Assembly: GCA_025642075.2 (NCBI GenBank)
Contig: JAODUO010000425.1
Coordinates: forward strand, 372,001 to 436,000
Source: Ridgeia piscesae
Taxonomy: Eukaryota > Annelida > Polychaeta > Sabellida > Siboglinidae
Length of the DNA stretch: 64,000 nucleotides
Reading direction: 5' to 3'
This document shows, piece by piece, positions 4,701-62,900 of the stretch. The notes beneath the pieces are model-generated. The model was given only the letters and a program-made list of their open reading frames with translations, was not told where the DNA came from and ran no database searches. Position numbers and translations under genes: made by a program. Positions within the stretch are counted from its first letter, which is position 1; every line of letters starts with the position of its first letter.

Positions 4701-6108
4701 TACAAAAAGAGTTGTCATAAAGTTGTCAGCCATGATGTGTTAGTTGTTTGTCTGATTTAGACATTTACTGTGACACGTATATCTCTGATTTGTGAGTGTC
4801 CAATGTGACCAGTGACCGCTGACCCAATGTGACAAGTTACCTCTGACTTGTGTTCATCAATTACATGTGTTCTGTGATCTCTGATCATTGTGTATCCTGT
4901 GATCTCTGAACCATATGCGTCAAGCACTCTGACTGATTTGCATCCCTGTGTGTGTCCAGTGTACCAGTTGATCTCGCGCCGGAGGTTCCAGCAGATGGAT
5001 GTGTTGGAGGGTCAGAACATCCTCATCACCATCTCAGGCAGGAAGCACAAGGTGCGAGTCTACTATCTCTCCTGGCTCAAGACCAAGATCTTCAAGACAG
5101 AGGGGGTGAGTCCACTCGCTGGAACAGCTCCTGAAAATAGAGTAGTCCTTGGCAGAGGGGATGAGTCCATTCAATGGAACAGCTGATAATAGAGTAGTTC
5201 TTGGCAGAGGGGGTGAGTCCATTCACTGGAACAGCTGATAATAGAGTAGTTCTTGGCAGAGGGGGTGAGTCCATTCACTGGAACAGTGCCTTGTAGAGCG
5301 GTAGTTATTGACAGCGGGGGTGAGTCCACTTGCTGGAACAGCACTTTGTATAGAACTAGTTCTTGGCAGTGGGGTGAGTCCATTCACTGGAACAGCACCT
5401 TGTACAGTGGTAGTTATTGACAGAGGAAGTGAGTCCACATGCCTGTTCTAGCTCGCTGACATTTCCTTGAACCAGGCCATAGTTTTTATTAATGGGCCAT
5501 GTTTGAATCTGAAATTTAAATAGAGCATATTTTGAAAATGTTTTGAATGGGATTGTTTGAATATTTGTTTATCTTAATACATGCAGGAGGTGTTATGTTG
5601 ACAGACAGAGAAACGCAATGGGTGGACCAATGTGGGCGACCTGGAGGGATGTGTTCACTTCAAGATAGGTGAGTGAACTCTTAGAGGGATGTGTTCACTT
5701 CAAGGTAGGTGAGTGAACTCGTAGAGGGATGTGTTCACTTCAAGATAGGTGGGTGAACTCACATGGATTTCTTTAAGAAAGATGAGTGAACTCACAGACG
5801 CACAGGGATGTGTTCACTTCAAGATAGGTACATTAACTTAGACATATGTAGATGTGTCCACTTGTAGTGTGAGTATCCACTGTAGAGAGGTGTCCACTGT
5901 AACAAGGTTCAGTGTTGTGTGTATTCATATAGATGTCTCACAGACGAATGTTTGGTGTTGATTTGTGTGTTGCGAGGTTCATTGTATCAAGGTTCGTTAC
6001 TGTTATGTGCCTATTTTAGAGAGGTGTTCACAGTTGCAGGATGTACCTGTATATAGTAGTTGGTATGTGCTGTAGAGAAGTGTCAGTTGTAGCAGGCAAT
6101 GTTGGTGC

Positions 6109-6159
<51 letters not shown>

Positions 6160-9100
6160 CGCGTGTGTGTGTGGTGTGTGTGTTGGTATGTGTGTGTTGG
6201 TATGTGTGTGTGGTGTGTGTTGGTATGTGTTGGTATGTGTGTGTTGGCGTGAGTGTGTGTGAGTGTGTTATAAAGAAGTGGTCACTGTAGCAGGGTGTGT
6301 GTTGCAGTCAAGTATGAGCGCATCAAGTTCCTGGTGGTGGGACTGAAGGACAGCATTGAGATCTACGCGTGGGCCCCAAAGCCCTACCACAAGTTCATGG
6401 CCTTCAAGGTGATCACTGTGATTACAGCGATCTCTGTAATCACTGCAATCACTGTGAATTACTGATCACAAACTACTACACACTGTGCAGTGATCACAAT
6501 TCAGTCATTACAGTGCAGAAATATCAAGACAAGTTCAGTGATCACGAACCATTGATCACAATACAATTCAGCAATCACAATATATTGAATACAATCCTGC
6601 GATCACAGTGTAGTGATATTAACTTAATGATATCAGTTCAGTGATCACATTACAATAATCACAGTACAGTGATAGCAATTCGTTGGTCAGGAATCAGTGG
6701 TCATAGTTCAGTGGTGACAATGAATTTATCCAGCAGGTCACGGTTTTTACTACATTGAGGCCCAATTCAAGCTTTGCCAGCAACATTGATAACTGTTAGA
6801 CCTGACTACAGGTGACTTACATTACTGCTGTGACACAGTGTCTCCGTGTATGTGACACTTTAACAACTTTCCCTTAAGTTTTTGTCATAAAAATAATCTT
6901 CTGAAACCAGACTGTCAACAAAATATATGACAAAAATCACGTGTGCAGGCAGCCATTTTATTGATTGCTTGACGGAGTTTGCTAAGCAGCCTGAATACAT
7001 CAATTCGGGGATCACAGTGAGACATGACGACAACCAATAATGACTGACACGTGACGTCATGTACGTCAAGTGACGTGTCACTCTTGTTGCAGGCCTTCAG
7101 CAGTCTTGAGGAGAAACCACTGCTGGTGGACCTCACTGTGGAGGATGGTCAGAGGTTAAAGGTCATCTATGGGTCGGACCACGGCTTCCACGCCATTGAC
7201 CTTGATACATCGCAAGTGTTTGACATCTACATTCCTAGTCAAGTGAGTAGACATGATTATGTTCCTAGTCAAGTTAATAGACATGATTACATTCCCAGTC
7301 AAATGAGTAGACATGACTGTTTTCCCAGTCAAGTGAGTACATATGATTATGTTCCCAATCAAGTGAATAAATATGATTAAGTCTTATTAGTAGACATGGT
7401 TACGTTTCCAGTCAAGTGAATAGACATGATTACATTCCTAGTCAAGTTAGTAGACATAATCATGTTCCTAGTTAAGTGAGTAGTCATGATTATGTTCCCA
7501 GTCATGTGAGTACACATGATTACGTTCCTAGCCAAGTGAATACACATGATTACATTCCCAGTCATGTGAGTACACATGATTACATTCCCAGTCATGTGAG
7601 TACACATGATTACGTTCCCAGTCAAGTGAGTAGACATGATTACATTCCCACTCATGTGAGTACACATGATTACATTCCCAGTCATGTGAGTACACATGAT
7701 TACATTCCCAGTCATGTGAGTACACGTGATTACATTCCCAGTCATGTGAGTATACATGATTACATTCCCAGTCATGTGAGTACACATGATTACATTCCCA
7801 GTCATGTGAGTACACATGATTACGTTCCTAGCCAAGTGAATACACATGATTACATTCCCAGTCATGTGAGTACACATGATTACATTCCCAGTCATGTGAG
7901 TACACATGATTACGTTCCCAGTCAAGTGAGTAGACATGATTACATTCCCACTCATGTGAGTACACATGATTACATTCCCAGTCATGTGAGTACACATGAT
8001 TACATTCCCAGTCATGTGAGTACACGTGATTACATTCCCAGTCATGTGAGTATACATGATTACATTCCCAGTCATGTGAGTACCCATGATTACATTCCCA
8101 GTCATGTGAGTACACATGATTACGTTCCTAGCCAAGTGAATACACATGATTACATTCCCAGTCATGTGAGTACACATGATTACATTCCCAGTCATGTGAG
8201 TACACATGATTACGTTCCCAGTCAAGTGTAGATGTTACATCCCATCATGGAGTACACATGATTACATTCCCAGTCATGTGAGTACACATGATTACATTCC
8301 CAGTCATGTGAGTACACGTGATTACATTCCCAGTCATGTGAGTATACATGATTACATTCCCAGTCATGTGAGTACCCATGATTACATTCCCAGTCATGTG
8401 AGTACACATGATTACGTTCCCAGTCAAGTGAGTAGACATGATTACGTTCCCAGTCAAGTGAGTAGACATGATTATGTTCTCAGTCAATAAACATGATTAT
8501 GTTCCTAGTCAAGTGAGTGAGTACAACTTAGTAGAACTTGGTAGGGTGGATTCAAAGTGAAAACCGAAGAACGATAACCTCCTGGCCACCACTGGCTCTA
8601 CAGAAGGTTGTAGGACGGTTGTACAGTGTCAACAGAGTGACACACTGTAGGATGGTTGTACAGTGTCAACAGAGTGACCCACTCTGTAGGATGGTTGTAC
8701 AGTGTCAACAGAGTGACACACTCTGTAGGACGGTTGTACAGTGTCAACAGAGTGACACACTCTGTAGGATGGTTGTACAGTGTCAACAGAGTGACACACT
8801 CTGTAGGATGGTTGTACAGTGTCAACAGAGTGACACACTCTGTAGGATGGTTCTACAGTGTCAACAGAGTGACTCACTCTGTAGGACGGTTGTACAGTGT
8901 CAACAGAGTGACACACTCTGTAGGATGGTTGTACAGTGTCAACAGAGTGACACACTGTAGGATGGTTGTACAGTGTCAACAGAGTGACACACTCTGTAGG
9001 ATGGTTGTACAGTGTCAACAGAGTGACTCACTCTGTAGGATGGTTGTACAGTGTCAACAGAGTGACACACTGTAGGATGGTTGTACAGTGTCAACAGAGT

Positions 9101-12100
9101 GACACACTCTGTAGGATGGTTGTACAGTGTCAACAGAGTGACTCACTCTGTAGGATGGTTGTACAGTGTCAACAGAGTGACACACTCTGTAGGATGGTTG
9201 TACAGTGTCAACAGAGTGACTCACTCTGTAGGATAGTTGTACCGTGTCAACAGAGTGACACACTCTGTAGGATGGTTGTACAGTGTCAACAGAGTGACTC
9301 ACTCTGTAGGATGGTTGTACAGTGTCAACAGAGTGACACACTCTGTAGGACGGTTCTACCGTGTCAACAGAGTGACTCACTCTGTAGGATGGTTGTACAG
9401 TGTCAACAGAGTGACACACTCTGTAGGACGGTTGTACAGTGTCAACAGAGTGACTCACTCTGTAGGACGGTTGTATCATGTCAATAGAGTGACACACTCT
9501 GTAGGACAGTTGTACAGTGTCAACAGAGTGACTCACTCTGTAGGACGGTTGTACAGTGTCAACAGAGTGACACACTCTGTAGGACGGTTGTACAGTGTCA
9601 ACAGAGTGACTCACTCTGTAGGACGGTTGTACAGTGTCAACAGAGTGACTCACTCTGTAGGATGGTTGTACAGTGTCAACAGAGTGACTCACTCTGTAGG
9701 ATGGTTGTACAGTGTCAACAGAGTGACACACTCTGTAGGATGGTTGTACAGTGTCAACAGAGTGACACACTCTGTAGGAGGTTGTACATGTCAACAGAGT
9801 GACACACTCTGTAGGACGGTTGTACCATGTCAACAGAGTGACACACTCTGTAGGACGGTTGTATCATGTCAACAGAGTGACACACTCTGTGGGACGGTTG
9901 TACCGTGTCAACGGAGTGACACACTCTGTAGGACGGTTGTACAGTGTCTAGATGACCATCTGTGGACGTTTACTGTGTCAACATGATAACTTTAAGACAG
10001 GTTGTATCATTAACAGAGTAGACACTTCATAAAACGGATAGGTAAACTGTGGTTCATAGACAAGTAAACAGTAGTTCATAGACAGGTGACCTGTGGTTCA
10101 TAGACAAGTAAACTGTGGTTCATAGACAGTTAACGTGGTCAGACAGAGTAAACTAGTTCATAGACGAGTTAACAGTGTTCAAGACAGAGTAACACTGTGT
10201 TCAAGACAGGTAAACTGTGGTCATAGAGAGTAAACTGTTCACAGTAAATGTTAAGGTAACTGTGGTTCACATGTCAACAGGTGACAACTGTGGTTCATAG
10301 ACGTGTAAACGTGTTCAAGACAGAGTAAACTGTGGTTCATAGACAGGTAAATGTATCATAGACAAGTAACTGTGGCCATAGACAGGTAGGACTTGGTTCA
10401 TAGACAGGTAAACGAGTTCATAGACAAGTAACTGTGGTTCATAGACAGGTAACAGCTGACATTCATAGATGGTAAACTGTGTCCAGACAGGTAAACATGT
10501 TCATAGACGAGTAAACAGTAGTTCATAGACAGATAACCTGTGGTTCACAGAAGGTAAACTGTGGTTCATAGACGAGTAAACAGTAGTTCACTAGACAGGT
10601 GACTGTGGTTCATAGACAAGTAAACTGTGGTTCATAGACAGGTAAACTGTGGTCCATAGACAGGTAAACTGTGGTTCATAGACAGGTAAACTGTAGTTCA
10701 TAGACAGGTAAACTGTGGTTCATAGACATGTAAACTGAGATTCATAGACAGGTAAACTGTGGTCCATAGACAGGTAAACAATAGTTCATAGACGAGTAAA
10801 CAGTAGTTCATAGACAGATAACCTGTGGTTCATAGACAGGTAAACTGTGGTTCATAGATGAGTAAACTGTTCACAGACAGGTAAACTGTGGTTCATAGAC
10901 AGGTAAACTGTGGTTCATAGACAGGTAAACTGTAGTTCATAGACAGGTAAACTGTGGTTCATAGACAGGTAAACAGTGGTTCATAGACAGGTAAACTGTC
11001 TGTTATGTGACAGACAGAGATATTAGATACAGGTTAAATGGATGGGCTAGTTCATGTCTTTTTCATCACCTGTAATGACATAGAATGGAATAATAAAATA
11101 AACATTACAGTGTTAATTTAATGAAGTATTAACACAATTTTAGCAGATGACTGTTTTACAGAACTAGTACAATATCAGTTTTAACTTTCAGTTTTATCAA
11201 CCTAATGTAATACCACATGCCTTTAAGAAGATGTACAATTAACAAATTGTGATCAAATTAGAATATCATTATGTGATGACGAGTATATTAAACAGTGGCT
11301 TTGTTGCTGTGGTTTATGTGTGATTGCTCAAGTTTTGTATTTGCTACTTTCATCTGCGTTGACGTAATCTCCCCTGGTGGCAATCTTCTGCAACGTGCGT
11401 GGATCATAGTTTAGGCAGCAGGTATATGCTTTAATCACTCAGCATGTGTGTGCTGTCCTCAACGCTGACTCCCATTCGTTTCACCCATTCCTCTGTCCCC
11501 AGTTGTCTGTATTCAGGGGCACTGTCCCCAGCTCCCTCTCCGCAGTCCATCCCCAGTCCCCTCCTCTCTGTCCCTGGTCCCTCTATCCCCAGTTTCTCAG
11601 TCTCTCTGCCCTCATCCCTTCACCCTTAAATTCCAACACGACAGTTCCTCTCCTCCAAAATCCTTCTGTCTAACTGTCTCTGTCCTGCCATGTTCACTGT
11701 GTCAAATCATCTGTCACCAGTCCCTCTGTCCTCACTTCACTATCCCCAGTCTCTCCCCCAAGTGTTCTGCACCCTGTCCCCAACCCTTCAACCCCCGTCT
11801 CCTGCCCACATACCTCCTGTTACCTGTCACTCTCACCCCAGTCCTCTATCTCCCGTCTGACTGTCTCCAGTCCTCTGTTACCTGTCACTCTCACTCCAGT
11901 CCTCTATCTCCCGTCTGACTGTCTCCAGTCCACTGTTACCTGTCACTCTCACCCCAGTCCTCTATCTCCCGTCTGACTGTCTCCTGTCCACTGTTACCTG
12001 TCACTCTCACCCCAGTCCTCTATCTCCCGTCTGACTGTCTCCAGTCCACTGTTACCTGTCACTCTCACCCCAGTCCTCTATCTCCCGTCTGACTGTCTCC

Positions 12101-15100
12101 TGTCCACTGTTACCTGTCACTCTCACCCCAGTCCTCTATCTCCCGTCTGACTGTCTCCAGTCCACTGTTACCTGTCACTCTCACCCCAGTCCTCTATCTC
12201 CCGTCTGACTGTCTCCAGTCCACTGTTACCTGTCACTCTCACTCCAGTCCTCTATCTCCCGTCTGACTGTCTCCAGTCCACTGTTACCTGTCACTCTCAC
12301 TCCAGTCCTCTATCTCCCGTCTGACTGTCTCCTGTCCACTGTTACCTGTCACTCTCACCCCAGTCCTCTATCTCCCGTCTGACTGTCTCCTGTCCACTGT
12401 TACCTGTCACTCTCACCCCAGTCCTCTATCTCCCGTCTGACTGTCTCCTGTCCACTGTTACCTGTCACTCTCACTCCAGTCCTCTATCTCCCGTCTGACT
12501 GTCTCCAGTCCACTGTTACCTGTCACTCTCACTCCAGTCCTCTATCTCCCGTCTGACTGTCTCCAGTCCACTGTTACCTGTCACTCTCACTCCAGTCCTC
12601 TATCTCCCGTCTGACTGTCTCCAGTCCACTGTTACCTGTCACTCTCACTCCAGTCCTCTATCTCCCGTCTGACTGTCTCCAGTCCACTGTTACCTGTCAC
12701 TCTCACTCCAGTCCTCTATCTCCCGTCTGACTGTCTCCAGTCCACTGTTACCTGTCACTCTCACCCCAGTCCTCTATCTCCCGTCTGACTGTCTCCAGTC
12801 CACTGTTACCTGTCACTCTCACCCCAGTCCTCTATCTCCCGTCTGACTGTCTCCAGTCCACTGTTACCTGTCACTCTCACTCCAGTCCTCTATCTCCCGT
12901 CTGACTGTCTCCAGTCCACTGTTACCTGTCACTCTCACTCCAGTCCTCTATCTCCCGTCTGACTGTCTCCAGTCCACTGTTACCTGTCACTCTCACCCCA
13001 GTCCTCTATCTCCCGTCTGACTGTCTCCAGTCCACTGTTACCTGTCACTCTCACTCCAGTCCTCTATCTCCCGTCTGACTGTCTCCAGTCCACTGTTACC
13101 TGTCACTCTCACCCCAGTCCTCTATCTCCCGTCTGACTGTCTCCGTCCACTGTTACCTGTCACTCTCACCCCAGTCCTCTATCTCCCGTCTGACTGTCTC
13201 CAGTCCACTGTTACCTGTCACTCTCACCCCAGTCCTCTATCTCCCGTCTGACTGTCTCCGTCCACTGTTACCTGTCACTCTCACCCCAGTCCTCTATCTC
13301 CCGTCTGACTGTCTCCAGTCCACTGTTACCTGTCACTCTCACCCAGTCCTCTATCTCCCGTCTGACTGTCTCCAGTCCACTGTTACCTGTCACTCTCACC
13401 CCAGTCCTCTATCTCCCGTCTGACTGTCTCCAGTCCACTGTTACCTGTCACTCTCACCCCAGTCCTCTATCTCCCGTCTGACTGTCTCCAGTCCACTGTT
13501 ACCTGTCACTCTCACCCCAGTCCTCTATCTCCCGTCTGACTGTCTCCAGTCCACTGTTACCTGTCACTCTCACTCCAGTCCTCTATCTCCCGTCTGACTG
13601 TCTCCAGTCCACTGTTACCTGTCACTCTCACCCCAGTCCTCTATCTCCCGTCTGACTGCCTCCAGTCCACTGTTACCTGTCACTCTCACTCCAGTCATCT
13701 ATCTCCCGTCTGACTGTCTCCAGTCCACTGTTACCTGTCACTCTCACCCCAGTCCTCTATCTCCCGTCTGACTGTCTCCAGTCCAATGTTACCTGTCACT
13801 CTCACTCCAGTCCTCTATCTCCCGTCTGACTGTCTCCAGTCCACTGTTACCTGTCACTCTCACCCCAGTGCTCTATCTCCCGTCTGACTGTCTCCAGTCC
13901 ACTGTTACCTGTCACTCTCACTCCAGTCCTCTATCTCCCGTCTGACTGTCTCCAGTCCACTGTCACTTGACCATATCTCCCCAGACCTTCTGTTATATTT
14001 ATTTATGTATCTCTTAAGTTGACAGTATTTTTTCCCCTCAGTTTTATCAGTGTCCTGCACCAGCTGTTGTCCTTAGTTGCACTTGCACACTACACAGCCA
14101 TGACTGACAACTACACAGCCACAGCCAAGACTGACAACTACACAGCCAAGACTGACAACTACACAGCCACGACTGACTACACAGCCATGACTGACAACTA
14201 CACAGCCACGACGGACAATTACATAGCCACCCCTGAAAACAACATAACAACGACCGACAACTAAACAAGGCATGACCAACAACTATACAGCCATGACTGA
14301 CAATTACACAGCCATGATTGACAATTACACAGCCATGATTGACAATTACACAGCCATGACTGACAATTACACAGCCATGATTGACAACTACACAGCCATG
14401 ACTGACAACTACACAGCCACGACTGACAACTACACAGCCACGACTGACAACTACACAGCCACAACTGACAACTACTCAGCCACGACTGACAACTACACAG
14501 CCACGACTGACAACTACACAGCCACGACTGACAACTACACAGCCACGACTGACAACTACACAGCCACGACTGACAACTACATAGCCATGACTGACAACTA
14601 CACAGCCATGACTGACAACTACACAGCCACGACTGACAACTACATAGCCACAACTGACAACTACACAGCCATCACTGACAACTACACAGCCATGACTGAC
14701 AACTACACAGCCATGACTGACAACTACACAGCCATAACTGACAACTACACAGCCACGACTGACAACTACATAGCCATAAATGACAACTACACAGCCACGA
14801 CTGACAACTACACAGCCACGACTGACAACTACACAGCCACGACTGACAACTACACAGCCACGACTGACAACTACACAGCCACGACTGCAACTACACAGCC
14901 ACGACTGACAACTACACAGCCATGACTGACAACTACACAGCCACGACTGACAACTACACAGCCATAACTGACAACTACACAGCCACGACTGACAACTACA
15001 CAGCCACGACTGACAACTACACAGCCATGACTGACAACTACACAGCCATGACTGACAACTACACAGCCATGACTGACAACTACACAGCCATAACTGACAA

Positions 15101-18100
15101 CTACACAGCCATGACTGACAACTACACAGCCATAAATGACAACTACACAGCCACGACTGCCAACTACACAGCCACGACTGACAACTACACAGCCATGACT
15201 GACAACTACACAGCCATGACTGACAACTACACAGCCACGACTGACAATTACACATTCATGATTGACAACTACACAGCCTTGACTGACAATTACACAGCCA
15301 CGATTGACAACTTGTCCACTCAGTAACTCAAGGCAGTGAAAGGTGATTTATCAGTAAATGTAATTATGATGTAAGCAGACGTCCTTAATTTTGTGACAAT
15401 GTGTTCAAAGTTGTCTTCAAAGTTGCTGTTTTCATACACGAAACTAATGCTATGTTTTGTGTTACGTTTATATTTCAGTTGAGTACGGTGCACTCCAGTG
15501 ATGGTAGTCAACTATCTAGTAGCCAACAACTGCTAGCTTTGTTCTAGTTTTATTGTTGTCACATTATGTTCCCATTATGTTCACATTATGTACACATTAT
15601 GTTCACATTACGTTCACATTATGTACACATTATGTTCACATTACGTTCAGTTGGACTGGACTGATTGAAACTGTACGCACAAGAAATGTGTCCTGTCAAC
15701 TTCTTACAGCAGCATGTAGCACTACACTGTGTCCTCTACTTCACATAGCCATTGTCATCACACTGATAAGTATCATGGTTCCTATCATCATGGTGACAGC
15801 CATCATGGTATCTGTCATCATGGTGACAGGCATCATGGTTTCTATTGTCATGGTGACAGGCATCATGGTTTCTGTCATCCTGGTGACAGGCATCATGGTT
15901 TCTATTGTCATGGTGACAGGCATCATGGTTTTTGTCGTCCTGGTGACAGGCATCATGGTTTCTATTGTCATGGTGACAGGCATCATGGTTTCTATTGTCA
16001 TGGTGACAGGCATCATGGTTTCTATTGTCATGGTGACAGGCATCACGATTCCTGTCATCAAGGTGACAGTCGTCATGGTGACACTGCTCACAGTTGCTGA
16101 CTGGTTGTTGTGACTCTGTTAAGTTTCAGTTGTATTTTAAATCATAAAATTATTATATGTACCATAACATTATTAAAATTTTAAATGAGACACATTCACA
16201 TAAGTAGTTGCTCACTCACATGTACATACACACACACGCACATATGCATGTACGTGCACACATAAATGTATATGCATGAGGTGTGTGACCGTGCTGCTAC
16301 ATGAGGTGTGTGACAGTACTGCTACATGAGGTGTGTGATAGCGCTGCTACATGAGGTGTGTGACAGCGCTGCTACATGAGGTGTGTGACAGCGCTGCTAC
16401 ATGAGGTGACAGTGCTGCTACATGAGGTGACAGCGCTGCTACATGAGGTGTGTGACAGCGCTGCTACATGAGGTGACAGTACTGCTACATGAGGTGTGTG
16501 ACAGTGCTGCTACATGAGGTGTGTGACAGTACTGCTACATGAGGTGACAGTGCTGCTACATGAGGTATGTGACAGTACTGCTACATGAGGTGTGTGACAG
16601 TACTGCTACATGAGGTGTGTGACAGTGACTGCTACATGAGGTGTGTGACAGTACTGCTACATGAGGTGTGTGACAGTGCTGCTACATGAGGTGTGTGACA
16701 GTACTGCTACATGAGGTGTGTGACAGTACTGCTACATGAGGTGTGTGACAGTGCTGCTACATGAGGTGTGTGACAGTACTGCTACATGAGGTGTGTGACA
16801 GTACTGCTACATGAGGTGTGTGACAGTGCTGCTACATGAGGTGTGTGACAGCGCTGCTACATGAGGTGTGTGACAGTGCTGCTACATGAGGTGTGACAGT
16901 ACTGCTACATGAGGTGTGTGACAGTGCTGCTACATGAGGTGTGTGACAGTACTGCTACATGAGGTGTGTGACAGTACTGCTACATGAGGTGTGTGACAGT
17001 GCTGCTACATGAGGTATGTGACAGTAACTGCTACATGAGGTGTGACAGTGTTGCTACATGAGGTGTGTGACAGTGCTGCTACATGAGGTTGTGACAGTAC
17101 TGCTACATGAGGTGTGTGACAGTGACTGCTACATGAGGTGTGTTACAGTGCTGCTACATGAGGTGTGACAGTCCTGCTACATGAGGTGTGTGACAGTCCT
17201 GCTACATGAGGTGTGACAGTCTGCTACATGAGGTGTGTGACAACGTAAGCTACATGAGGTTGTGACAGTACTGCTACATGAGGTGTGTGACAGTACTGCT
17301 ACATGAGGTGACAGTACTGCTACATGAGGTGTGTGACAGTACTGCTACATGAGGTGTGTGACAGTACTGCTACATGAGGTGTGTGACAGTGCTGCTACAT
17401 GAGGTGTGTGACAGAGCTACAGAGGACAGTGCTGTACATGAGGTGTGTGACTACAGACCGCTACAGGGTGTGTGACAGTAGCTACAGAGCGTGACAAGGA
17501 CACTGGTGTGTGGACTACAGACACGGGACAGGGTGTGTGGACTACAGACACGGGACAGGGTGTGTGGACTACAGACACGGGACAGGGTGTGTGGACTACA
17601 GACACGGGACAGGGTGTGTGGACTACAGACACGGGACAGGGTGTGTGGACTACAGACACGGGACAGGGTGTGTGGACTACAGACACATGGAAAACAGGAG
17701 GGTGTGTGGACTACAGACATGGGACAGTGTGTGTGGACTACAGACACGGGACAGTGTGTGTGGACTAAAGACACGGGACAGTGTGTGTGGACTACAGACA
17801 CGGGACAGGGTGTGTGGACTACAGACACGGGACAGGGTGTGTGGACTACAGACACGGGACAGTGTGTGTGGACTACAGACACGGGACAGTGTGTGTGGAC
17901 TACAGACACGGGACAGTGTGTGTGGACTACTAGACATGGGACAGTGTGTGTATGGACTACAGACACAGGACAGGGTTGGGGTGTGTGTGGCTCAGACAGG
18001 GACAGTGTGTGGACTACAGACACGAAGTGTGTGTGGACTACAACATGGGACAGTTTCTCTCTCCTATTGTCTTGTCTTCACACATGACTTCTCTCTCCCA

Positions 18101-21100
18101 ATGTCTTGTCTTCACACATGACTTCCCTCTCCTAGTGTCTTGTCTTCACACATGACTTCTCTCTCCCATTGTCTTGTCTTCACACATGACTTCTCTCTCC
18201 CATTGTCTTGTCTTCACACATGACTTCCCTCTCCTATTGTCTTGTCTTCACACATGACTTCTCTCTCCCATTGTATTATCTTCACATATGACTTCTTTCT
18301 CCTATTGTCTTGTCTTCACACATGACTTCTCTCTCCCATTGTCTTGTCTTCACACATGACTTCTTTCTCCTATTGTCTTGTCTTCACATATGACTTCTTT
18401 CTCCTATTGTCTCGTCTTCACACATGACTTCTCTCTCCCATTGTCTTGTCTTCACACATGACTTCTCTCTCCCATTGTCTTGTCTTCACACATGACTTCT
18501 CTCTCCTATTGTCTTGTCTTCACACATGACTTCTCTCTCCCATTGTCTTGTCTTCACACATGACTTCTTTCTCCTATTGTCTTGTCTTCACACATGACTT
18601 CTTTCTCCTATTGTCTCGTCTTCACACATGACTTCTCTCTCTCCCAATGTCGAGGTTGTATATCACTTAGCCTATGGACTTTGGTTGTTACTGCAGTGGT
18701 TGGTGTCATGAGCTGTTTGTGTTTGTCCAGATGAAGGTGTCTATGTGAACACGTACGGCAAGATCACCAAGAACGTTGTGCTCCAGTGGGGTGAACAACC
18801 CACCTCTGTAGGTGAGTCCCCCTTGTCTTGTGTGTGTGTTGTGGGCACTCCCCCCGATGGAACCAAACATGTATGTATCCCATCCGTGTGAGGGCGCTGT
18901 ATGTTGGAAAACAAGATCAGATCTGGTAGCTCTGTACAGCCTACGTCACCTGTCAGATCACCTTGTGCTGTATGTACAGCCTACGTCAACTGTCAGATCA
19001 CCTTGTGCTGTATGTACAGCCTACGTCCACCTTCAGATCACCTTGTGTTTTATGTACAGCCTACGTCAACTGTCAGATCACCTTGTGTTGTATGTACAGC
19101 CTACGTCAACTGTCAGATCACTTTGTGCTGTATGTACAGCCTACGTCCACCTTCAGATCACCTTGTGTTTTATGTACAGCCTACGTCAACTGTCAGATCA
19201 CCTTGTGTTTTATGTACAGCCTACGTCAACTGTCAGATCACCTTGTGTTTTATGTACAGCCTATGTCAACTGTCAGATCACCTTGTGCTGTATGTACAGC
19301 CTACGTCACCTGTCAGATCACCTTGTGCTGTATGTACAGCCTGTGTCCACTGTCAGATCACCTTGTGTTGTATGTACAGCCTACGTCAACTGTCAGATCA
19401 CCTTGTGTTTTATGTACAGCCTATGTCAACTGTCAGATCACCTTGTGTTGTATGAACAACCTGTGTCAACTGTCAGATCACCTTGTGCTGTATGTACAGC
19501 CTACGTCACCTGTCAGATCACCTTGTGTTGTATGTACAGCCTATGTCAACTGTCAGATCACCTTGTGCTGTATGTACAGCCTGTGTCCACTGTCAGATCA
19601 CCTTGTGTTGTATGTACAGCCTACGTCATGTCAGATCACCTTGTGTGTATGTAAGCCTAGTCAACTGTCAGATCACCTTGTGTTATGTCAGCTGTCACGT
19701 AGATCACCTTGTGTGTATGTAGCCTACGTCACTGTAGATCACCTTGTGCTGTATGTACAGCTGTCATTCAGATCACCTTGTTTGTATGTACAGCCTAGTC
19801 AACTGTCAGATCACCTTGTGTTGTATGCCTACGTCACCTGTCAGATCACCTTGTGTGTATGTCAGCCTAGTCAATATAGATCACCTTGTGTTGTATGTAG
19901 CCTACGTCACCTGTCAGATCACCTTGTGTGTATTACAGCCTGCACGCAGATCACCTGTTGGTAGTACAGCTACGTCTTCAGATCACCTTGTGCTGTATGT
20001 ACAGCCTACGTCACCTGTCAGATCACCTTGTGCTGTATGTACAGCCTACGTCAACTGTCAGATCACCTTGTGCTGTATGTACAGCCTACGTCACCTTCAG
20101 ATCACCTTGTGTTTATGTACAGCCTACGTCAACTGTCAGATCACCTTGTGTTGTATGTACAGCCTACGTCAACTGTCAGATCACCTTGTGCTGTATGTAC
20201 AGCCTACGTCCACCTGTCAGATCACCTTGTGTTGTATGTACAGCCTACGTCAACTGTCAGATCACCTTGTGTTTTATGTACAGCCTACGTCAACTGTCAG
20301 ATCACCTTGTGTTTTATGTACAGCCTATGTCAACTGTCAGATCACCTTGTGCTGTATGTACAGCCTACGTCACCTGTCAGATCACCTTGTGCTGTATGTA
20401 CAGCCTGTGTCCACTGTCAGATCACCTTGTGTTGTATGTACAGCCTACGTCAACTGTCAGATCACCTTGTGTTTTATGTACAGCCTATGTCAACTGTCAG
20501 ATCACCTTGTGTTGTATGAACAACCTGTGTCAACTGTCAGATCACCTTGTGCTGTATGTACAGCCTACGTCACCTGTCAGATCACCTTGTGTTGTATGTA
20601 CAGCCTATGTCAACTGTCAGATCACCTTGTGCTGTATGTACAGCCTATGTCCACTGTCAGATCACCTTGTGTTGTATGTACAGCCTACGTCAACTGTCAG
20701 ATCACCTTGTGCTGTATGTACAGCCTGTGTCCACTGTCAGATCACCTTGTGTTTTATGTACAGCCTATGTCAACTGTCAGATCACCTTGTGTTGTATGTA
20801 TGGCCTACGTCAACTGTCAGATCACCTTGTGCTGTATGTACAGCCTACGTCAATTATCAGATCACCTTGTGTTGTATGTACAACCTGTGTCCACTGTCAG
20901 ATCACCTTGTGTTGTATGTACAACCTACGTCAACTGTCAGATCACCTTGTGTGGTATGTACAGCCTACGTCAACTATCAGATCACCTTGTGTTGTATGTA
21001 CAGCCTACGTCACCTGTCAGATCACCTTGTGTTGTATGTACAGCCTACGTCAATTATCAGATCACCTTGTGTTGTATGTACAGCCTACGTCACCTGTCAG

Positions 21101-27496: not shown

Positions 27497-27884
27497 CTAT
27501 CGGAATGGTCCAAACTTGAGCTTCGGCGTATAGCAGGTGTGGGTGGGTGGCGTGCTGTGGGTGGGTGTGGTGTTGAAGTGGCGTGCTATGAGACGTGCGA
27601 TGTCAGTGACAGAGTCTTGCGGCCGACTCATGAAGCCAGGCATGTTCCAGTAGGTGTGCTGCCAGTGGTGGTCAGCGACCGCCTCAGGGTCAAGGACATT
27701 CACAAACTTGCTGTCCACCAGGTGGCGACACACGTGCTGTGCATCCGTGCTGAGGCCAGTTGTATTCACACAAGACTTCTTCAAGTACGGCAACTGCATC
27801 GGGTCAAACCGCATGCTGAAGTACACAGGGGGCAGCACTGACACACTGTCTTCAGAAGGACGCTGTGATGATGCATTCAGGTAC
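27497..27884 (-). CDS. GT32 gene exon 3 (C-terminal)
   Basis: Acceptor on the minus strand is CTGTCCCCAG before GTACCTGAATG. Encodes [19 protein letters not shown], then [17 protein letters not shown], and [13 protein letters not shown]. An H-x-x-x-x-W block near the C-terminus is typical of GT32. Two N-glycosylation sequons (NAS, NTT) are seen. It ends at the stop at 27497-27499. Confidence 0.9.
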
Positions 27885-33800: not shown

Positions 33801-34096
33801 ACTAGTGAAAGAGATAAATATATATGTACAACATGAATGGATTCGTTAGAGAGGTGCATTAGTGAAAGAGATAAATATATATGTACAACATGAATGGATG
33901 CGTTAGAGAGGTGCACTAGTGAAAGAGATAAATATATATTTACAACATGAATGGATGTGTTAGAGAGGTGCACTAGTGAAAGAGACAAATATATATGTAC
34001 ACTATGAATGGATGCATTAGAGGTGCACTAGTGAAAGAGATAGATATATATGTACAACATGATTGGATACATTAGAGAGGTGCACTAGTGAAAGAG

Positions 34097-34148
<52 letters not shown>

Positions 34149-34495
34149 GTGTGTATGTAATACTATGTATAACATGGATGGATACATCAGAGAGGTGCAC
34201 TAGTGAAAGAGATAAATATATATGTACAACATGAATGGATGCGTTAGAGAGGTGCATTAGTGAAAGAGATAAATATATATGTACAACATGAATGGATGCG
34301 TTAGAGAGGTGCACTAGTGAAAGAGATAAATATATATTTACAACATGAACAGATGTGTTAGAGAGGTGCACTAGTGAAAGAGATAAATATATATATATAG
34401 TACACTATGAATGGATGCATTAGAGGTGCACTAGTGAAAGAGATAGATATATATGTACAATATGATTGGATACATTAGAGAGGTGCACTAGTGAA

Positions 34496-34550
<55 letters not shown>

Positions 34551-34612
34551 AGGTGTGTATGTAATACTATGTATAACATGATGGATACATCAGAGAGGTG
34601 CACTAGTGAAAG

Positions 34613-34679
<67 letters not shown>

Positions 34680-34941
34680 TGGATGACATTAGAGAGGTGC
34701 ACTAGTGAAAGAGATAAATATATATGTACAACATGATTGGATACATCAGAGAGGTGCACTAGTGAAAGAGATAAATATATATGTACAACATGATTGGATA
34801 CATCAGAGAGGTGCACTAGTGAAAGAGATAAATATATATGTACAACATGATTGGATACATCAGAGAGGTGCACTAGTGAAAGAGATAAATATATATGTAC
34901 AACATGATTGGATACATCAGAGAGGTGCACTAGTGAAAGAG

Positions 34942-35012
<71 letters not shown>

Positions 35013-35226
35013 AACATGAATGGATACATCAGAGAGGTGCACTAGTGAGAGATAAATATATATGTACAACATGAATGGATACGTTAGAGAGGTGCACTAG
35101 TGAAAGAGATATATATATATGTACAACATGAATGGATACATTAGAGAGGTGCACTAGTGAAAGAGATAAATATATATGTACAACATGATTGGATACATTA
35201 GAGAGGTGCACTAGTGAAGGAGATAA

Positions 35227-35293
<67 letters not shown>

Positions 35294-36548: not shown

Positions 36549-36599
36549 GTACAGAGTGCAGCAGTCTCATAAGATATCCGTTGTCATGACAATGGCAAC

Positions 36600-38690: not shown

Positions 38691-38694
38691 CGTA

Positions 38695-46855: not shown

Positions 46856-47090
46856 GGACGTGTTTGATGACACAGTAAGTCACCAGGACACCCAGGCAGT
46901 TTGATGACACAGTAAGTCACCAGGAGATCCAGGCATGGACGTGTTTGATGATGCACTTAGTCACCAGGATTCCCAGACACGGATGTGTTAGATGGAGCAC
47001 TAAGTAACCAGGACTCCCAGACACAGACGTGTTTGATGGCTCACTAAGTCACCAGGACTCCCAGGCACGGACGTGTTTGATGACGTCGAA
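46855..47090. repeat. Tandem copies of the PPP1R35-like 3' coding end
   Basis: Five to six units of about 55-60 bp. On the minus strand each holds ATCAAACACGTCCGTGCCTG then GGAGTCCTGGTGACTTAGT: the last codons (IKHVRAWESW), the TGA stop and a few 3' UTR bases. The real gene end is the first copy in transcript order, and decay increases away from the gene. Confidence 0.85.
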
Positions 47091-47222
47091 GGCACACGTG
47101 ACGTCGACCGTGCGGAGCTGACCCTGGAGGGAAGGGAGCGCCTCGAGGGACACACTGGGTGACTCCTGCTGCCCCACTTCTCCTAACATGTCAAGGATGT
47201 CAGGGTCACGACCTCCAAACTC
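47049..47222 (-). CDS. PPP1R35: PPP1R35-like gene exon 3
   Basis: Minus-strand acceptor GTGTTTTGCAG. Encodes EFGGRDPDILDMLGEVGQQ, SLEALPSLQGQL, and FDVIKHVRAWESW, then TGA. Its end is duplicated downstream in several decayed copies. Confidence 0.8.
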   Translation of the reverse strand, partial: EFGGRDPDILDMLGEVGQQESPSVSLEALPSLQGQLRTVDVTCAFDVIKHVRAWESW

Positions 47223-50200
47223 CTGCAAAACACGCAATTATTACATTAGTATATTTATTTTATAAAATTGGTAAAACTAATTTAAAAAAAAATCTTTCAC
47301 AAATAATATGTAGGCTGATAAGTAAATGTTTTACCTCTCAAAAAAACTTTTTTTCCATATATTTCAGCTGTCTCTCACAGCCTTCTTCAATGGACTGAAT
47401 TTCATGGTCATGTCACATGACATGGGGAAATTCAGTCCGCTGAAGAAGGCTGTGAGAGACAGCTGAAATATATGGAAAAAGAAGAAAAAGTATTTTTGAG
47501 ATGTAAAACATTTACTTTTTAACAATGATCCAAGAAATTGGATCATTACATTCGAATAATATGTATGCTACATTTTTAATTGTATTTCATTCGTACCATG
47601 TGACTTATTATTATTTGTATTGCTTGCTTTTTAATATTGTGTGTTTTGAAATAAATTGAATTGAATAGGCTACATTAAATAAATATAAAGTGTATTTTAA
47701 TAAACATAATAATCATATATTTATTTAATGTACATGGGCTCTATTTTAATGGTATTCCATTCCATTACTCCCAGATTTTGCAATGGATTACCAGATTCCA
47801 CACAATGGGGATCTGGGCAGATTATCTCGAGTGCTAGTCAAGCCCGGTTTTCATTTTTTTTTAGCAACTTGATTGATTTGTTCTTAGTACTGCAGTCACC
47901 CATTAGTACCAGTTGATATTGTCATACTTTAGTACTATGTACAGTCACCCATTAGTACCAGTTGATATTGTCATACTTTAGTACTATGTACAGTCACCCA
48001 TTAGTACCAGTTGATATTGTCATACTTTAGTACTATGTACAGTCACCCATTAGTACCAGTTGATATTGTCATACTTTAGTACTATGTACAGTCACCCATT
48101 AGTACCAGTTGATATTGTCATACTTTAGTACTATGTACAGTCACCCATTAGTACCAGTTGATATTGTCATACTTTAGTACTATGTACAGTCACCCATTAG
48201 TACCAGTTGATATTGTCATACTTTAGTACTATGTACAGTCACCCATTAGTACCAGTTGATATTGTCATACTTTAGTACTATGTACAGTCACCCATTAGTA
48301 CCAGTTGATATTGTCATACTTTAGTACTATGTGCAGTCACCCATTAGTACCAGTTGATATTGTCATACTTTAGTACTATGTACAGTCACCCATTAGTACC
48401 AGTTGATATTGTCATACTTTAGTACTATGTACAGTCACCCATTAGTACCAGTTGATATTGTCATACTTTAGTACTATGTACAGTCACCCATTAGTACCAG
48501 TTGATATTGTCATACTTTAGTACTATGTACAGTCACCCATTAGTACCAGTTGATATTGTCATACTTTAGTACTATGTACAGTCACCCATTAGTACCAGTT
48601 GATATTGTCATACTTTAGTACTATGTACAGTCACCCATTAGTACCAGTTGATATTGTCATACTTTAGTACTATGTACAGTCACCCATTAGTACCAGTTGA
48701 TATTGTCATACTTTAGTACTATGTACAGTCACCCATTAGTACCAGTTGATATTGTCATACTTTAGTACTATGTACAGTCACCCATTAGTACCAGTTGATA
48801 TTGTCATACTTTAGTACTATGTACAGTCACCCATTAGTACCAGTTGATATTGTCATACTTTAGTACTATGTACAGTCACCCATTAGTACCAGTTGATATT
48901 GTCATACTTTAGTACTATGTACAGTCACCCATTAGTACCAGTTGATATTGTCATACTTTAGTACTATGTACAGTCACCCATTAGTACCAGTTGATATTGT
49001 CATACTTTAGTACTATGTACAGTCACCCATTAGTACCAGTTGATATTGTCATACTTTAGTACTATGTACAGTCACCCATTAGTACTAGTTGATATTGTCA
49101 TACTTTAGTATATACCCCATTAGTACCAATGAATACTTTTACCTCTGTCTGGAGCCCCCTGGCAGGGTGTGGGGGCTTCACCCTGGCTGTTGTCATCTCT
49201 GCCACTGTCTTCACAAGTTCGTCCTCGCATACGTCCACACTGAGCAGGTTGACAAACTGTCTGCCACCCTCCGCATTCACCCTCGCACACGCCTGTCAAC
49301 ATAAACACACTGTCATGTCAGCAGAGGACACTACAGTACAGACAAATCCACACCTGTCAACATAAACACACTGTCATGTGACTCATATCAGCAGACGACA
49401 CTAAAGTACAGACAAGTCACATTTGTCAATATAAAGTCATAAACACATCATCTTGTATTTTCTGGGAAAATTCAGCCATGCTGCAATTAATGCACAATGT
49501 AATTATTACACAAATATCCACCACTGTCTAGAGTGTAGTTCTCTCTCATACAGCTGAGAGAACTGGAGTAATGTAGCACATGGGGTCAAATACGTTGAAA
49601 TGTATTTAAATACAAATACTCTTGAGAGACTCCAATACAAATACAATTCTAAATACTTTTAAATGCAAAGTATTTAAATACAAATATATTGAAAGTATTT
49701 CAAATATTTTTCAAATGCTTTTCTTTTTTCAGGATGTATTACTGTGTAAAGAAAAGAAAAGCAAATTATGTATCGAGACATCTGGTTTATAACCATAATT
49801 AGTGTTTTGCTCATATGATGACAGGCAGACCAGTGCTAGGGAGTCTTGTTATTGCTAACTACATCACATGGTAGTTAGCAATGACAACATAATCTGTTGT
49901 TTATTATGTTAAGCCAGGTGGTCTATAATAAAATGCTTATGTTGCCCCCAGAAGAGACAATGCTAGGATCTTGTGAAGAAATGCAATAGCCTGTTGTCAT
50001 CTAGGAGCCTGACTAAAGAATAAAGGGGATATTGATATATGGTCACTGTCAGGTGCTAATCCATCTTCTGGCTCAGAGCAAACAACAGTTGTAGTCACTG
50101 CCTGTGCAATGGGGCAATGGGGGACACCTGCTGTCAACTGTCTTCTTCAGTAATTAGCACAGTTGGGTAATTTAGGAAAAGTATTTAAATACAAATTCTT

Positions 50201-52875: not shown

Positions 52876-52879
52876 TGAC

Positions 52880-56724: not shown

Positions 56725-56907
56725 ATGGCGCTCAGCACCAATATGGAGCCGATATTTACCGTAGCATTATTAGGATCGGTCGTTTTCACGGCGGTTGCGG
56801 CTATAATAAGCGTGTGTTTAGCTAGGTGGCTCGGAAAACAATGTTCGTCGGGCGATAAACTGACGATATCGTGGCTGTTGTGGGACTGCATTGTCCACTG
56901 CAGTCTG
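56725..56907 (+). CDS. EBPL: EBPL exon 1
   Basis: 61 codons from ATG to CAGTCTG|GTAAGC. Encodes the first transmembrane helix ([20 protein letters not shown]) and [13 protein letters not shown] second in-frame ATG is at codon 7. Confidence 0.92.
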
Positions 56908-59900
56908 GTAAGCACAAAAAGCTTGAGCGATAATTGAGTCATTGACTAAACTGATATCTCCATTGACATCATAAAAGGGGTACATGTAGTGGGAGTTGGA
57001 TGATTCGGCCCAACACAGATTCGGCCCATTAGGCCGAATCGTCCGTTTCTGTTCTGCAATCGTCAAAGTTCGGCCTATTTGCGCTCGCATGGGCCGAATC
57101 AACCGTATCTGCAACAAGTGCAAGTTCTGGTGCTTCATCAAACCAAGAAGAACTGAGGGAATGGGAGTCTCTCCACTCAAAAATACTGGGAAACTCATTA
57201 CAGACCCCAAAGAACAAGCCCAGCTTCTCAATAACCAATTTTGTTCTGTGTTCAGTCCCAGAGATACTGTTACTGCTGAGGAGTTTAAACTACGTTGCCC
57301 CACAAAACCAGGCCTTCCTGAATACCTTCAGAAGGCATTTGATACGGTAAATCATAAGATTATGCTTCAAAAACTGGAAGCAATAGGACTTCATGAATCT
57401 GCTATAGCCTGGTTTAAATCATATTTATATGGACGTCAACGGATCAGTTGAAATCGGTGAAGCGATCTCTAATCCGATGACTGTCACATGTGGTGTCCCA
57501 CAAGGTTCAATTCTGGGACCGTTATTATTTCTAATATATATTAATGATATTTACACAGCTGTTCGCTGCAAACTACTTTTGTATGCTGATGGTTCAGCCC
57601 TTTTAGTCTCGGGTAAAGACACCAAACTGATTCAAGAAAGTCTTTCTTCAGAACTCAAGGTAGCCAGAGACTGGTTAATCAATAACAAATTGTCCCTCCA
57701 TCTAGGGAAAACGGAGTCAATTCTATTTGGGTCGAAACGTAAACTTAACACCTGTAGTTCCATCCAGGTGAGATGTGCTGGTACAACATTGGCAAGTCAA
57801 ACCCATGTTAAATATCTAGGCATAGACCTAGATCAGTCATTAACTGGAGAAAGAGTGGCTGACAAGATAATTTGTAAATCAAATGCCAAATTAAAATTGT
57901 TGTATAGACATACAAAAAATATCAACATGAAAACAAAAAAAACTTCTTACCACAGCATTAATACAATGCCATTTTGACTATGCATGTTCATCATGGTTCT
58001 CTGGTTTAACCAAGAAATATAAATCCAGACTTCAGTGTACTCAGAACAAGGTAATCCGTTTCATCTTAAATGCACCAGCCAGAACCCACATCGGTTTGAG
58101 AGAGTTTAGACTGGTGAATATGCTACCAGTGAAGTTACGAGTTAAATAACTCAAATTGAACCTTGTTTACAATGTCATAAATGATAAAGCACCGAAGTAT
58201 ATGTCAAATTTGATAAATGTAGCATGTAAGCAGCATGGCATAAATACAAGATCTAGTGTTATGTCTCTTCGAGTGCCGTATGTTAAATCACTTGGGCAAA
58301 CCTCCTTTTACTGCACAGGAATTCATGCCTGGAACGATTTTCCATACAAAGTGTTCAGAACATGAGGCAATTTAAATGTCTACTGAAGCAGTTTTTGTTC
58401 AGTTGTCTTAATGATCAGGAAGCCAGCTCATTTATTTATTAGTAATCATAATTGATGACGTAATTTTTATTTTTTATTATTTATTAGATTTATTTATGCT
58501 TTTTTGTAATAAATAACAAGGTTTTACAAAGTGTTTCTAATCAGGAGATACTTCCATACTTTTTTATATTGTAATTATCAATGTCATTTACATATATTAG
58601 TAATTATTTATAACACTTAATTATTATGGTTGTTTTAGTATGTTATATTTGTCATTTCTGTCAATGTCTGTCATGTGTACGTCAAGGACCACAATGGAAA
58701 TAAGTGCGTGCACTTTTTGTGTTATCAGAATATTTAAATGTACCTTGTATTTATATATTATGCATATGTGTACAATGTTTTACATTTTATATTAAATAAA
58801 TCAATCAATCAAAAGTACACAGACTGCAAAAACATCAACATTACTGAAGAAGGGGTGAAGAAACTGCTTCTAAACTTAGACCCTAACAAAACCTGTGGTC
58901 CTGACAGGATCTCACGAAGGCTCCTGAAGATAGTTGCAGAAGAAGTCACACCAGCCCTTACCTTGCTCTTCCGAAACTCCTACCAGACTGGAACATTGCC
59001 ACTCGACTGGAAATTAGCCCATATCAAGTCTATCTTCAAGAAGGAAGAACGATACAAGGCAGAAAACTACCGCCCCATCTCACTCACATGCATAGCCTGC
59101 AAGGTGATGGAGCACATCATCGCCAGTCACATCATGTCACACCTAGAGAAGAACAGCATTCTCTGCCCAGAGCAGCATGGCTTCTGATGCGGATGGTCCT
59201 GTGAGACACAACTTCTGGGGTATGTGGATGAAACAAGCGAAGAGCTGGAGAGGGGAAACCAGGAGGACATCATTGTCCTTGACTTTGAAAAAGCATTCGA
59301 CAAGGTGAGCCATACCCTCCTAGTTCACAAACTGTGTCGCTATGGCATCGGAGGTCGACTTAATGCATGGATTGACAGCTTTCTCGAGAACAGACAGCAG
59401 GCTGTAGTGGTTGGGGGAGAGAGATCAAACTTCATGCCTGTGGACTCGGGAGTCCCCCAGGGATCAGTCGTTGGCCCGTGTCTCTTCCTTCTGTACATCA
59501 ATGACCTACCCATAGACATTGAATCAAAAATCTGACTGTTTGCTGATGACACCTTGTGCAGTAACACCATTAAACACAAAGAGGACCAGAAAAAGCTGCA
59601 AAAAGATCTTGATTCCCTCACCACATGGGAGAAACAGTGGTCCATGAGCTTCCATCCACAGAAATGCTACACGTTGAGTATCACCCGAAAGAAAGAAAAA
59701 ATTGTACCGTCATACCACCTACATAGACACAACCTGCAAAACGTCAGCACAGCAAAATACCTTGGCGTAAACATACAGGACAACCTGAATTGGGGACTCC
59801 ACATAGACACCATCACCAATAAGGCGAACAAGACACTCGGCTTCCTCAGAAGAAACCTAAAAATCGGAAACAAGAAAAGAAAACAAAAGAAACAGCATAT

Positions 59901-62900
59901 AAAGCCTTTGTCCGCCCAATCCTGGAGTACTCGGCCACTGTCTGGGACCCACACCCTGCAAACAACATAAAAACAATAGAAAAAGTCCAACGCCGTGCAG
60001 CAAGATGGGTTACAAATAGACACCTCCAGACATCCTGCGTCAACTCCATCATCGACTCTCTTGCCTGGCCCACACTCCAACAACGCCGTAAAAAAGCTCG
60101 ACTTGAAATGTTTTACAAATTTAACCAACACATCATCACCATTGATTCTGAATACCTACCACAGCCAACAGAAACCAGACCAAGCCACAGAAAGAACAAC
60201 ACACACAGCTACAATATCCCCTACTGCAGGACACAGTACAGACAGATGTCATTCTTCCCCCGGACCATCCCTGAATGGAACAGCCTGCCCCAGGAAATAG
60301 TGGCAGCCAAGTCCCTGGACTTTTAAGTCCAGGCTTGCTGCTCACCTGTAAACAGACATACCACCCCTCCCCTTCCCCCTCCCCTCTTATTTCTTATGTC
60401 TACTACCCCCCATCTACTATGCCACACACCCTTTCACTACATTTCAGAAGTGTCTACTGCAACCTCCACAAATCACATGGGAATGGGCCGAATCGTCCGT
60501 CCTGCCTGTGAAGCGACCTGTAATCTGATGATATTTCTTATTTTCTTATTATTGTTTTTACTACACAATAATTGTTGAGTATTATTCAGAAAATTATCAA
60601 TCTTACTTTTGCTGTGTAACAATCTTTTGTATACAATATCAGTGTGTGATAATATTTACGAAGTGGATATTCTTCCGGCAGCCATAACCTGATATCGGCC
60701 GGCTAATCTTCCATGATTTTAGTTGCGCATGTGCCGTGGTCGTGACCCTTGAGTGCATGAGTACTGAACCAGTCACCGGCAAAACGAGTTCATTGGTGTT
60801 GTAGTCAGTGATAAATTTTCCTCTTTTGGTGTTTTATCCGAGAAGTTATAGGCACATTTGCGTGATTCAACTTGTCTTTGTGTTCACAGGAAGCCTTGTT
60901 TCTCACCGTGTCTGGGTTCACAAGAAACCTTGTTTCTCACGTTGTCTTTGTGTTCACAGGAAGCCTTGTTTCTCACGTTGTCTTTGTGTTCACAGGAAGC
61001 CTTGTTTCTCACCGTGTCTGGGTTCACAAGAAACCTTGTTTCTCACGTTGTCTTTGTGTTCACAGGAAGCCTTGTTTCTCACATTGTCTTTGTGTTCACA
61101 GGAAGCCTTGTTTCTCACCGTGTCTGGGTTCACAAGAAACCTTGTTTCTCACGTTGTCTTTGTGTTCACAGGAAGCTTTGTTTCTCACGTTGTCTTTGTG
61201 TTCACAGGAAGCCTTGTTTCTCACCGTGTCTGGGTTCACAAGAAACCTTGTTTCTCACGTTGTCTTTGTGTTCACAGGAAGCCTTGTTTCTCACATTGTC
61301 TTTGTGTTCACAGGAAGCCTTGTTTCTCACATTGTCTTTGTGTTCACAGGAAGCCTTGTTTCTCACATTGTCTTTGTGTTCACAGGAAGCCTTGTTTCTC
61401 ACGTTGTCTTTGTGTTCACAGGAAGCCTTGTTTCTCACGTTGTCTTTGTGTTCACAGGAAGCCTTGTTTCTCACGTTGTCTTTGTGTTCACAGGAAGCCT
61501 TGTTTCTCACGTTGTCTTTGTGTTCACAGGAAGCCTTGTTTCTCACGTTGTCTTTGTGTTCACAGGAAGCCTTGTTTCTCATTGTGTCCCTCTCTGGTAC
61601 AGTGCAGGACTCGACCCACTGGACACTGGCCACTTGTAAGTCCATCCACTTCTTCCTCTTGCTCCCTTGTGAGATGGGGTCCTTTCACTTGCTCACTTGT
61701 GGGGTGAGGTTCTTCCCTTTACTCTCTTGTGGGATTGATTCCTTCCCCTGGCTCCCTTGTAGGATGGGGTCCTTCCCCTTGCTCATTTGATGGTTGGAGT
61801 CTTTTTATTGTTTGCAAACTCCTGTCCTCATTCTATGACCAACCGCTGTCAACCTTTGGGGTTAATTTGTGTAACTCTTAGATGACGTGATGGTGTCTGC
61901 GTTATGTGACGACAGATTTGAGTGTAATGTGACAGTGTGGTATCACACGGTAACAAATGTGTCAGTGTGGTGTGATAAAATGACAGATGTGGCAGTTTGG
62001 TGTCAAAAAATGACAGACGCGACATGTGATGTCATAAAACATTATAACATAATATTGAGGTCTGTCACAGGGAGGGAGTATGGTAAGGCAGACAAGCGAT
62101 TCCTCGTCTCTGACCCAACCATCGTTTCCATGGCGATGCCGACTGTGGCCGTGTGCGGACCACTGTGTGTCGCACTCATCTACTCCATCATCCGACAGTG
62201 CGCCTACAGACACTGGCTACAGGTGGCGCTGTGTGTCTGTGAACTATATGGAGGTCAGTCGATTTAATCCACCACTAGATGTCCCCACAAGTATCATTTA
62301 AGTTCATTTGTCACGCTGTGCTCTTTTGATAAAGAAAAGTTACGGTTGTTGAAGGTTTGTGTGAAAAGGATTGTTTTGAAATATTAAACTATTGTATGCA
62401 TTTTTTTATTATTCCATAACTAAACAAAATTCATGTAATTCTATGTCTGCATTTAATTACAAATGTGTTATAACCCTAACAACATATATAAATTCATGTG
62501 TACACGGAAATTATCTGTCAATTTCACATTTGTAGGCTAAAAATTGTGTAGTTACAGTCAAAGCACCATAGAAAAATAGTAAACTCCTATGAAATTACTA
62601 ACAAATATTACTTTTCTGTGCCTGAAACTATAACCACTAAACATTAGTGGCAAACTGTGCAGTTTGCATACCCCGTTGCCCCACCCTCCCCCACCCACCC
62701 TGGTTATATCCTGTAGCTATGTCAGCACACACAATAATATTTACTGAACTGCTTAGATGGGTCAATTATTTATTGTATTTGAGACTGCGAATGAAGGAAC
62801 TTGTACTAATGACAGACTAGACAACAACAGATGCGACAGGTCACAAAAAGATGGTCTTTCTCTGTAATGAGAAACTTCATTCTGTAATATTTAATGTATA

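Follow-up and report, generated by a model that had tools for sequence, protein, structure and literature searches.

The window, by which is meant the whole 64,000-nucleotide stretch of DNA analysed here, contains four genes that were modelled from sequence alone, with exon edges picked by reading frame and a GT or AG obligatory. On the plus strand lies a kinase gene (1630..23579; 10 exons modelled), which we take to be of the MAP4K4/TNIK type; its CNH-domain end matches Pfam CNH at E 1.8e-56, and a search of the PDB returned no match at E 0.001. Judging from human kinases, a further CNH-domain stretch would presumably lie between 7242 and 18731. No such exon was found in the corresponding intron (7243-18730), either in six unique stretches read by eye or in a scan with peptides of the domain; the intron consists mostly of arrays, and the gap would reflect a missing exon or a fault of assembly. 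The minus strand carries a GT32-type glycosyltransferase gene (27500..36566; Pfam Gly_transf_sug, E 9.9e-19) of three exons with approximate outer ends, as well as two exons of an unnamed gene (47053..49292), which has no Pfam match at E 0.001 and no PDB match at E 1. An EBP-like (EBPL) gene of four exons (56725..63302, plus strand; Pfam EXPERA, E 6.7e-26) completes the set. The four models provide 33 exon edges, composed of 16 donors and 17 acceptors, each of which was located once, at its own place. An Rfam search of the window returned no match at the gathering score.

Other features of the window were noted alongside these genes. Long reverse-transcriptase-like open frames, of the non-LTR element type as judged by eye, occupy 38656-40176 and 57408-60323, the second group being situated in EBPL intron 1. 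A 304-residue open frame at 50815-51726 (minus strand) has no Pfam match at E 0.001, and the plus strand is open there too. Within the intron of the unnamed gene, inverted copies of one sequence were seen by eye near each other at 47350-47480, and perhaps represent a small palindromic element.

Tandem repeats are the dominant component of this DNA. Tandem Repeats Finder reported 87 rows for the window, which were merged by hand into 47 arrays with units of at least 10 bp, microsatellites being omitted. These arrays cover 39086 of the 64000 bases (61% of the window); their share of bases is 72.8% in introns, 7.7% in exons and 50.9% elsewhere. One of them, a 27-bp array of 2.4 copies at 1698-1762, lies within a coding exon of the kinase gene, which shows that arrays do not grow in introns alone; its unit length is divisible by 3. 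Another, with a unit of 15-16 bp (23577-23614), begins at the kinase stop codon and extends into the 3' UTR; this edge is under constraint and involves no splice site.

Tandem arrays that span exon edges

At nine of the 33 modelled junctions, about a quarter, an array takes in 8 nt or more of the exon. Donors (5/16) and acceptors (4/17) are affected alike. Eight of these junctions had been named in a first-pass annotation of the same DNA, which proposed that the repeated unit is the exon edge together with its splice site, and all eight are confirmed to the base, with a unit that holds both elements in every case. Six belong to the kinase gene (plus strand). Its donor 5105 is the phase point of a 52-bp array (5098..5437) with 8 exon nt in the unit, and donor 5668 that of a 40-bp array (5644..5760; 25 exon nt) from which degenerate copies continue to about 5835. 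A 30-bp array of 42.5 copies (7228..8486; 15 exon nt) is phased on donor 7242. Acceptor 22389 is included in a 28-bp two-copy duplication (22343..22399; 11 exon nt), and diverged copies of the same edge constitute a 40-bp array of 87 copies (18933..22365), a link that the earlier annotation did not contain. A 41-bp duplication (17 exon nt) and a 22-bp array, together spanning 22512..22848, are phased on donor 22528, and a 19-bp array of 34 copies (22854..23505; 10 exon nt) is phased on acceptor 23496 of the last exon. The remaining two are the acceptor of GT32 exon 2 at 33391 (minus strand), with a 68-bp array (33334..33774) whose 58 exon nt include the codons of the DXD stretch, and the acceptor of EBPL exon 2 at 61566 (plus strand), with a 36-bp array (60872..61581; 16 exon nt). 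The ninth junction, overlooked previously, is donor 47053 (minus strand) of the unnamed gene, on which a 44-bp array (46862..47085; 33 exon nt) is phased. The eight junctions named earlier fall in three genes and not in the four originally claimed; the added donor belongs to a fourth. Unit lengths across the junction arrays, as given by Tandem Repeats Finder, range from 19 to 68 bp.

The relation of each junction to its own intron was measured with a 24-mer, taken as 12 nt either side of the junction and searched in that intron, against two nulls, one being the highest score among 40 stretches from other introns and the other the highest among 40 shuffled versions of the query. Ten of the 33 junction 24-mers exceeded both nulls, these being the nine array junctions and acceptor 4960. 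Among 434 control tests with 24-mers from exon interiors only five were positive, four of which lie inside the GT32 exon 2 array, which runs 58 nt deep. Acceptor 4960 was rejected as the site of a spanning array: its copy belongs to a two-copy repeat (4800-4847) situated 112 nt upstream (exon extension P 0.014).

Three more repeats adjoin a junction without a visible exon part. The first is a 57-bp array (33785..36150, minus strand) that meets GT32 exon 1 donor 36154 from the intron side. This donor and the GT32 exon 3 acceptor had been listed as probable members of the group, and both failed the 24-mer test as spanning arrays. At the donor, the array begins 3-4 nt within the intron and the 24-mer score was 6 against a null mean of 7.4; an exon extension with P 0.02 was discounted owing to the AT-rich, low-complexity sequence of the compared copy. 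At the acceptor, the array is 58 nt away, the score was 8 against a null mean of 7.3, and the match crossing the junction is weak at best (shuffle P 0.02). A comparison of unit with junction finds in both cases a resemblance to the intron side. The second repeat is an 18-bp array (6411..6462, plus strand) beginning 3 nt past kinase donor 6408, where a decayed spanning array was considered and rejected after seven copies were checked (exon extension P 0.19 to 1). The third, a degenerate repeat whose unit, as judged by eye, measures roughly 61 nt (49293..49420, minus strand; far end approximate), ends on the AG of unnamed-gene acceptor 49292; its exon extension has P 0.19, and it was undetected by Tandem Repeats Finder.

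The arrays were said to have unrelated sequences, and the units of different arrays do appear mostly dissimilar when compared with one another. This holds in part only, since at least six of 45 unit pairs have a shuffle P of 0.03 or less where about 1.4 would be expected. Among the six lowest are a pair formed by two arrays at one junction and a between-gene pair that was unmatched in 100 shuffles. The likeness may be due in part to the common splice consensus.

Direction of copying and the fate of the splice-site copies

All nine arrays share a simple architecture, in that each copies its own junction and spreads intronward, with the true edge of the exon forming its terminal copy; the earlier view of local origin with a terminal exon holds throughout. 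At two edges the direction of copying can be approached through solved relatives. The copied edge of GT32 exon 2 aligns through the DXD stretch with the mannosyltransferase 9n3s (E 1.2e-9), and the first residue of EBPL exon 2, a Glu, pairs with a Glu of the isomerase 6oht (E 1.4e-18). Both exon edges are old, coding and conserved, so that the array derives from the exon, and copying at these two edges ran from exon into intron. At 23496, 22389 and 7242 the inner copies of the array have common differences from the true edge. Six arrays had enough copies for a comparison with distance, and in all six a copy's identity to the true edge shows no trend with how far away it lies (P 0.16 to 1). Together, these observations are consistent with inner copies that have been homogenised while the edge was kept apart, as has been described for a globin mirage minisatellite (PMC3087553). 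In the EBPL and GT32 arrays the inner consensus is close to the true edge, and these arrays would be either younger or less drifted.

The same differences bear on whether the arrays are products of assembly. The kinase intron lacks the expected CNH stretch and, being rich in repeats, may be imperfectly assembled, and the copy numbers of the arrays may be wrong. The copies nonetheless differ mutually, the units differ among arrays and the terminal copies carry fixed differences, so an artefact is given almost no credence. A model of the Rogers type, which the globin paper put forward for mirages, would instead make the arrays remnants of intron birth, with introns originating from coding AG/GT segments that were duplicated in tandem (PMC3087553). 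Junction copies inside introns are the starting point of that model as the paper presents it, and are what is seen here. Several introns, however, carry extra arrays of a different unit, so that arrays need no intron birth, and this origin is considered highly improbable.

The copied splice sites, found by alignment and referred to here as decoys, are for the most part intact. GT stands at the phased place in 65/71 decoy donors, and AG in 82/128 decoy acceptors, or in 82/94 once the array at 23496 is set aside. AG is present in 62/70 decoys of acceptor 22389 and in 0/34 of acceptor 23496, where the decoy consensus is AC. The splice dinucleotide is not generally lost in inner copies. Scored against a nine-base donor consensus, five arrays contain 40 decoy GT sites that equal or surpass their own true donor; the 7242 array contributes 30 of these and the 22528 array none. 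Two of the nine units, those at 7242 (30 bp) and EBPL (36 bp), are divisible by 3, and in both the reading frame stays open: 45 codons can be read on past donor 7242, and 714 nt upstream of EBPL exon 2. Use of an inner site at either place would insert repeats into the protein.

These features could suggest that selection retains the arrays, either with the extra sites as decoys that tune splicing or with in-frame units as peptide repeats, and the many intact GT and AG dinucleotides and the two open frames are what would favour such a function. The conservation data argue otherwise. The dinucleotide columns are better conserved than others in 8/9 arrays, each time by less than 1 SD of columns, and the order is reversed in EBPL; this is not read as a sign of selection. 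The entire 23496 array does without AG, and two units in nine divisible by 3 is chance level at most. A functional role for the arrays is accordingly regarded as very unlikely.

Exon borders and the placement of founders

The first-pass annotation took the arrays to imply a recurring process acting at exon/intron borders. Such a process, whether through R-loop repair or replication trouble or through steps in nucleosome occupancy or base composition, would seed duplications preferentially at these sites. The three repeats that adjoin further junctions could be counted in its favour. Splice factors bind RNA, and splice-site-bound DNA, one of the causes suggested, is therefore unlikely. Measured across all junctions, the share with own-intron repeats was 15-17/33 at +40 to +60, 10/33 at the junction itself, 3/33 at -20 and 0/27 at -60. 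This profile has no peak at the junction; it counts all copies, founders and later ones, which inflates it inside the intron, and so cannot by itself exclude a hot spot. Nor is there a preferred register. The exon share of the unit ranges from 0.15 to 0.85 with a mean of 0.52, compatible with a uniform distribution (KS P 0.40, n=9), and nine values leave room for a mild preference. Donors and acceptors alike are affected, and arrays occur also in non-genic DNA and, in one instance, starting at a stop codon. Arrays occupy 61% of the window, and the border-directed process that was proposed is not shown.

Evidence in its favour comes from a founder null, in which each array contributes one founder that is dropped at a random position of the collapsed ancestral intron, independently of the others and with overlap allowed. 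The length of that intron was assumed to equal the sum of its non-array bases and a single unit for every array. The analysis covered the 15 introns with two known ends, and thus 30 junctions; donor 47053 and acceptors 1630 and 49292, whose introns have one known end, were excluded. In the base model, 8/30 junctions were straddled against 3.2 expected (P 0.0028), and with a 4-nt limit the expectation was 3.8 (P 0.012). Over a rerun and seven variants P ranged from 0.0003 to 0.026, with 0.020-0.026 when the non-array length was halved. Omitting two introns almost without non-array sequence left five straddled junctions against 1.59 expected (P 0.0115). The null hinges on the assumed ancestral intron lengths, and all border statistics derive from one 64-kb stretch chosen for displaying the pattern. 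A modest excess of duplication at borders is possible, not shown, and a process directed at borders as the source of the arrays is judged rather unlikely. Its furthest form would hold that exon borders are true tandem-duplication hot spots, seeding 2-3 times as often as other intron sequence of equal length, and also that the in-frame copies at EBPL exon 2 and donor 7242 are spliced into proteins of variable length; this combination is unlikely.

The reading that we favour, with a probability of roughly 0.72, is that the junction arrays are "mirage" minisatellites that grew from chance founders spanning borders in a genome prone to tandem duplication. Short tandem duplications would arise and expand readily throughout such a genome, and some founder segments would happen to lie across the edge of an exon. 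Such a segment may then be multiplied by slippage or unequal exchange, and selection would retain only those expansions that place new copies on the intron side and leave one intact terminal exon edge. That the arrays always extend into the intron would be the expected residue of such selection against broken exons. The demands of coding and splicing would pin the terminal copy, and the remaining copies would homogenise together and drift away from it. Splicing presumably takes place at the terminal copy, with the look-alike intronic sites presumably ignored by the cell. Two observations weigh on this account: random founder placement by itself is somewhat too weak, with about three straddles expected and eight seen, and the likeness of some units across genes exceeds that of shuffled sequence.

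Comparison with known junction minisatellites

Adh3 was reportedly the subject of work by Canestro et al. in 2002, which both amphioxus papers on mirages cite. Where selection holds an exon edge fixed, a minisatellite's founder stays readable, as it does in few other places. If the density seen here were genome-wide, this genome would lend itself to studying how the spliceosome selects a single site when dozens of nearly identical ones lie close by, and how introns grow by copying their own edges. Among the literature matches listed there was no genome-wide census of mirage minisatellites, which does not disprove that one exists.

Tandem repeats at exon-intron boundaries have also been described in human segmental-duplication genes, where the units are likewise of minisatellite length and can shift splice-site choice and gene structure (PMC2812944). 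In that account they concern recent primate paralogues, and for most of the intron changes a transcript with the repeat retained in the exon is known as well. In Caenorhabditis elegans, CeRep25B and similar intronic minisatellites are statistically tied to splicing decisions near alternative exons (PMC4039745). That resemblance is limited in that CeRep25B, as reported there, is one repeat family present at several genes and not a set of local junction copies.

The closest parallel is found in amphioxus, for which the first-pass annotation had mentioned similar junction minisatellites; these are indeed in print as mirages of Adh3, the globins BflGb6 and BflGb9, PGBD5 and troponin C (PMC3087553, PMC3902484). 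Their published units measure 10-72 bp in Adh3 and 150-160 bp in the globins (PMC3087553). As these papers describe them, mirages consist of tandem copies across borders, at donors as well as acceptors, with varied unit length, with AG or GT in many copies and with the genuine edge closing the cluster. Further traits associated with mirages are a cephalochordate host, undisturbed regular splicing, and array lengths that are unstable from one haplotype to another or in somatic cells. The arrays of the present window likewise have border-spanning copies at both kinds of border, units of variable length and AG or GT in many though not all copies, and the kind is thus already known from the amphioxus mirages (PMC3087553, PMC3902484). 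What sets the present case apart from those accounts is scale and measurement: the amphioxus mirages were reported gene by gene at a few loci, whereas nine of 33 junctions carry them in one 64-kb stretch here, in arrays of up to 87 copies and with both the repeat background and a null measured.
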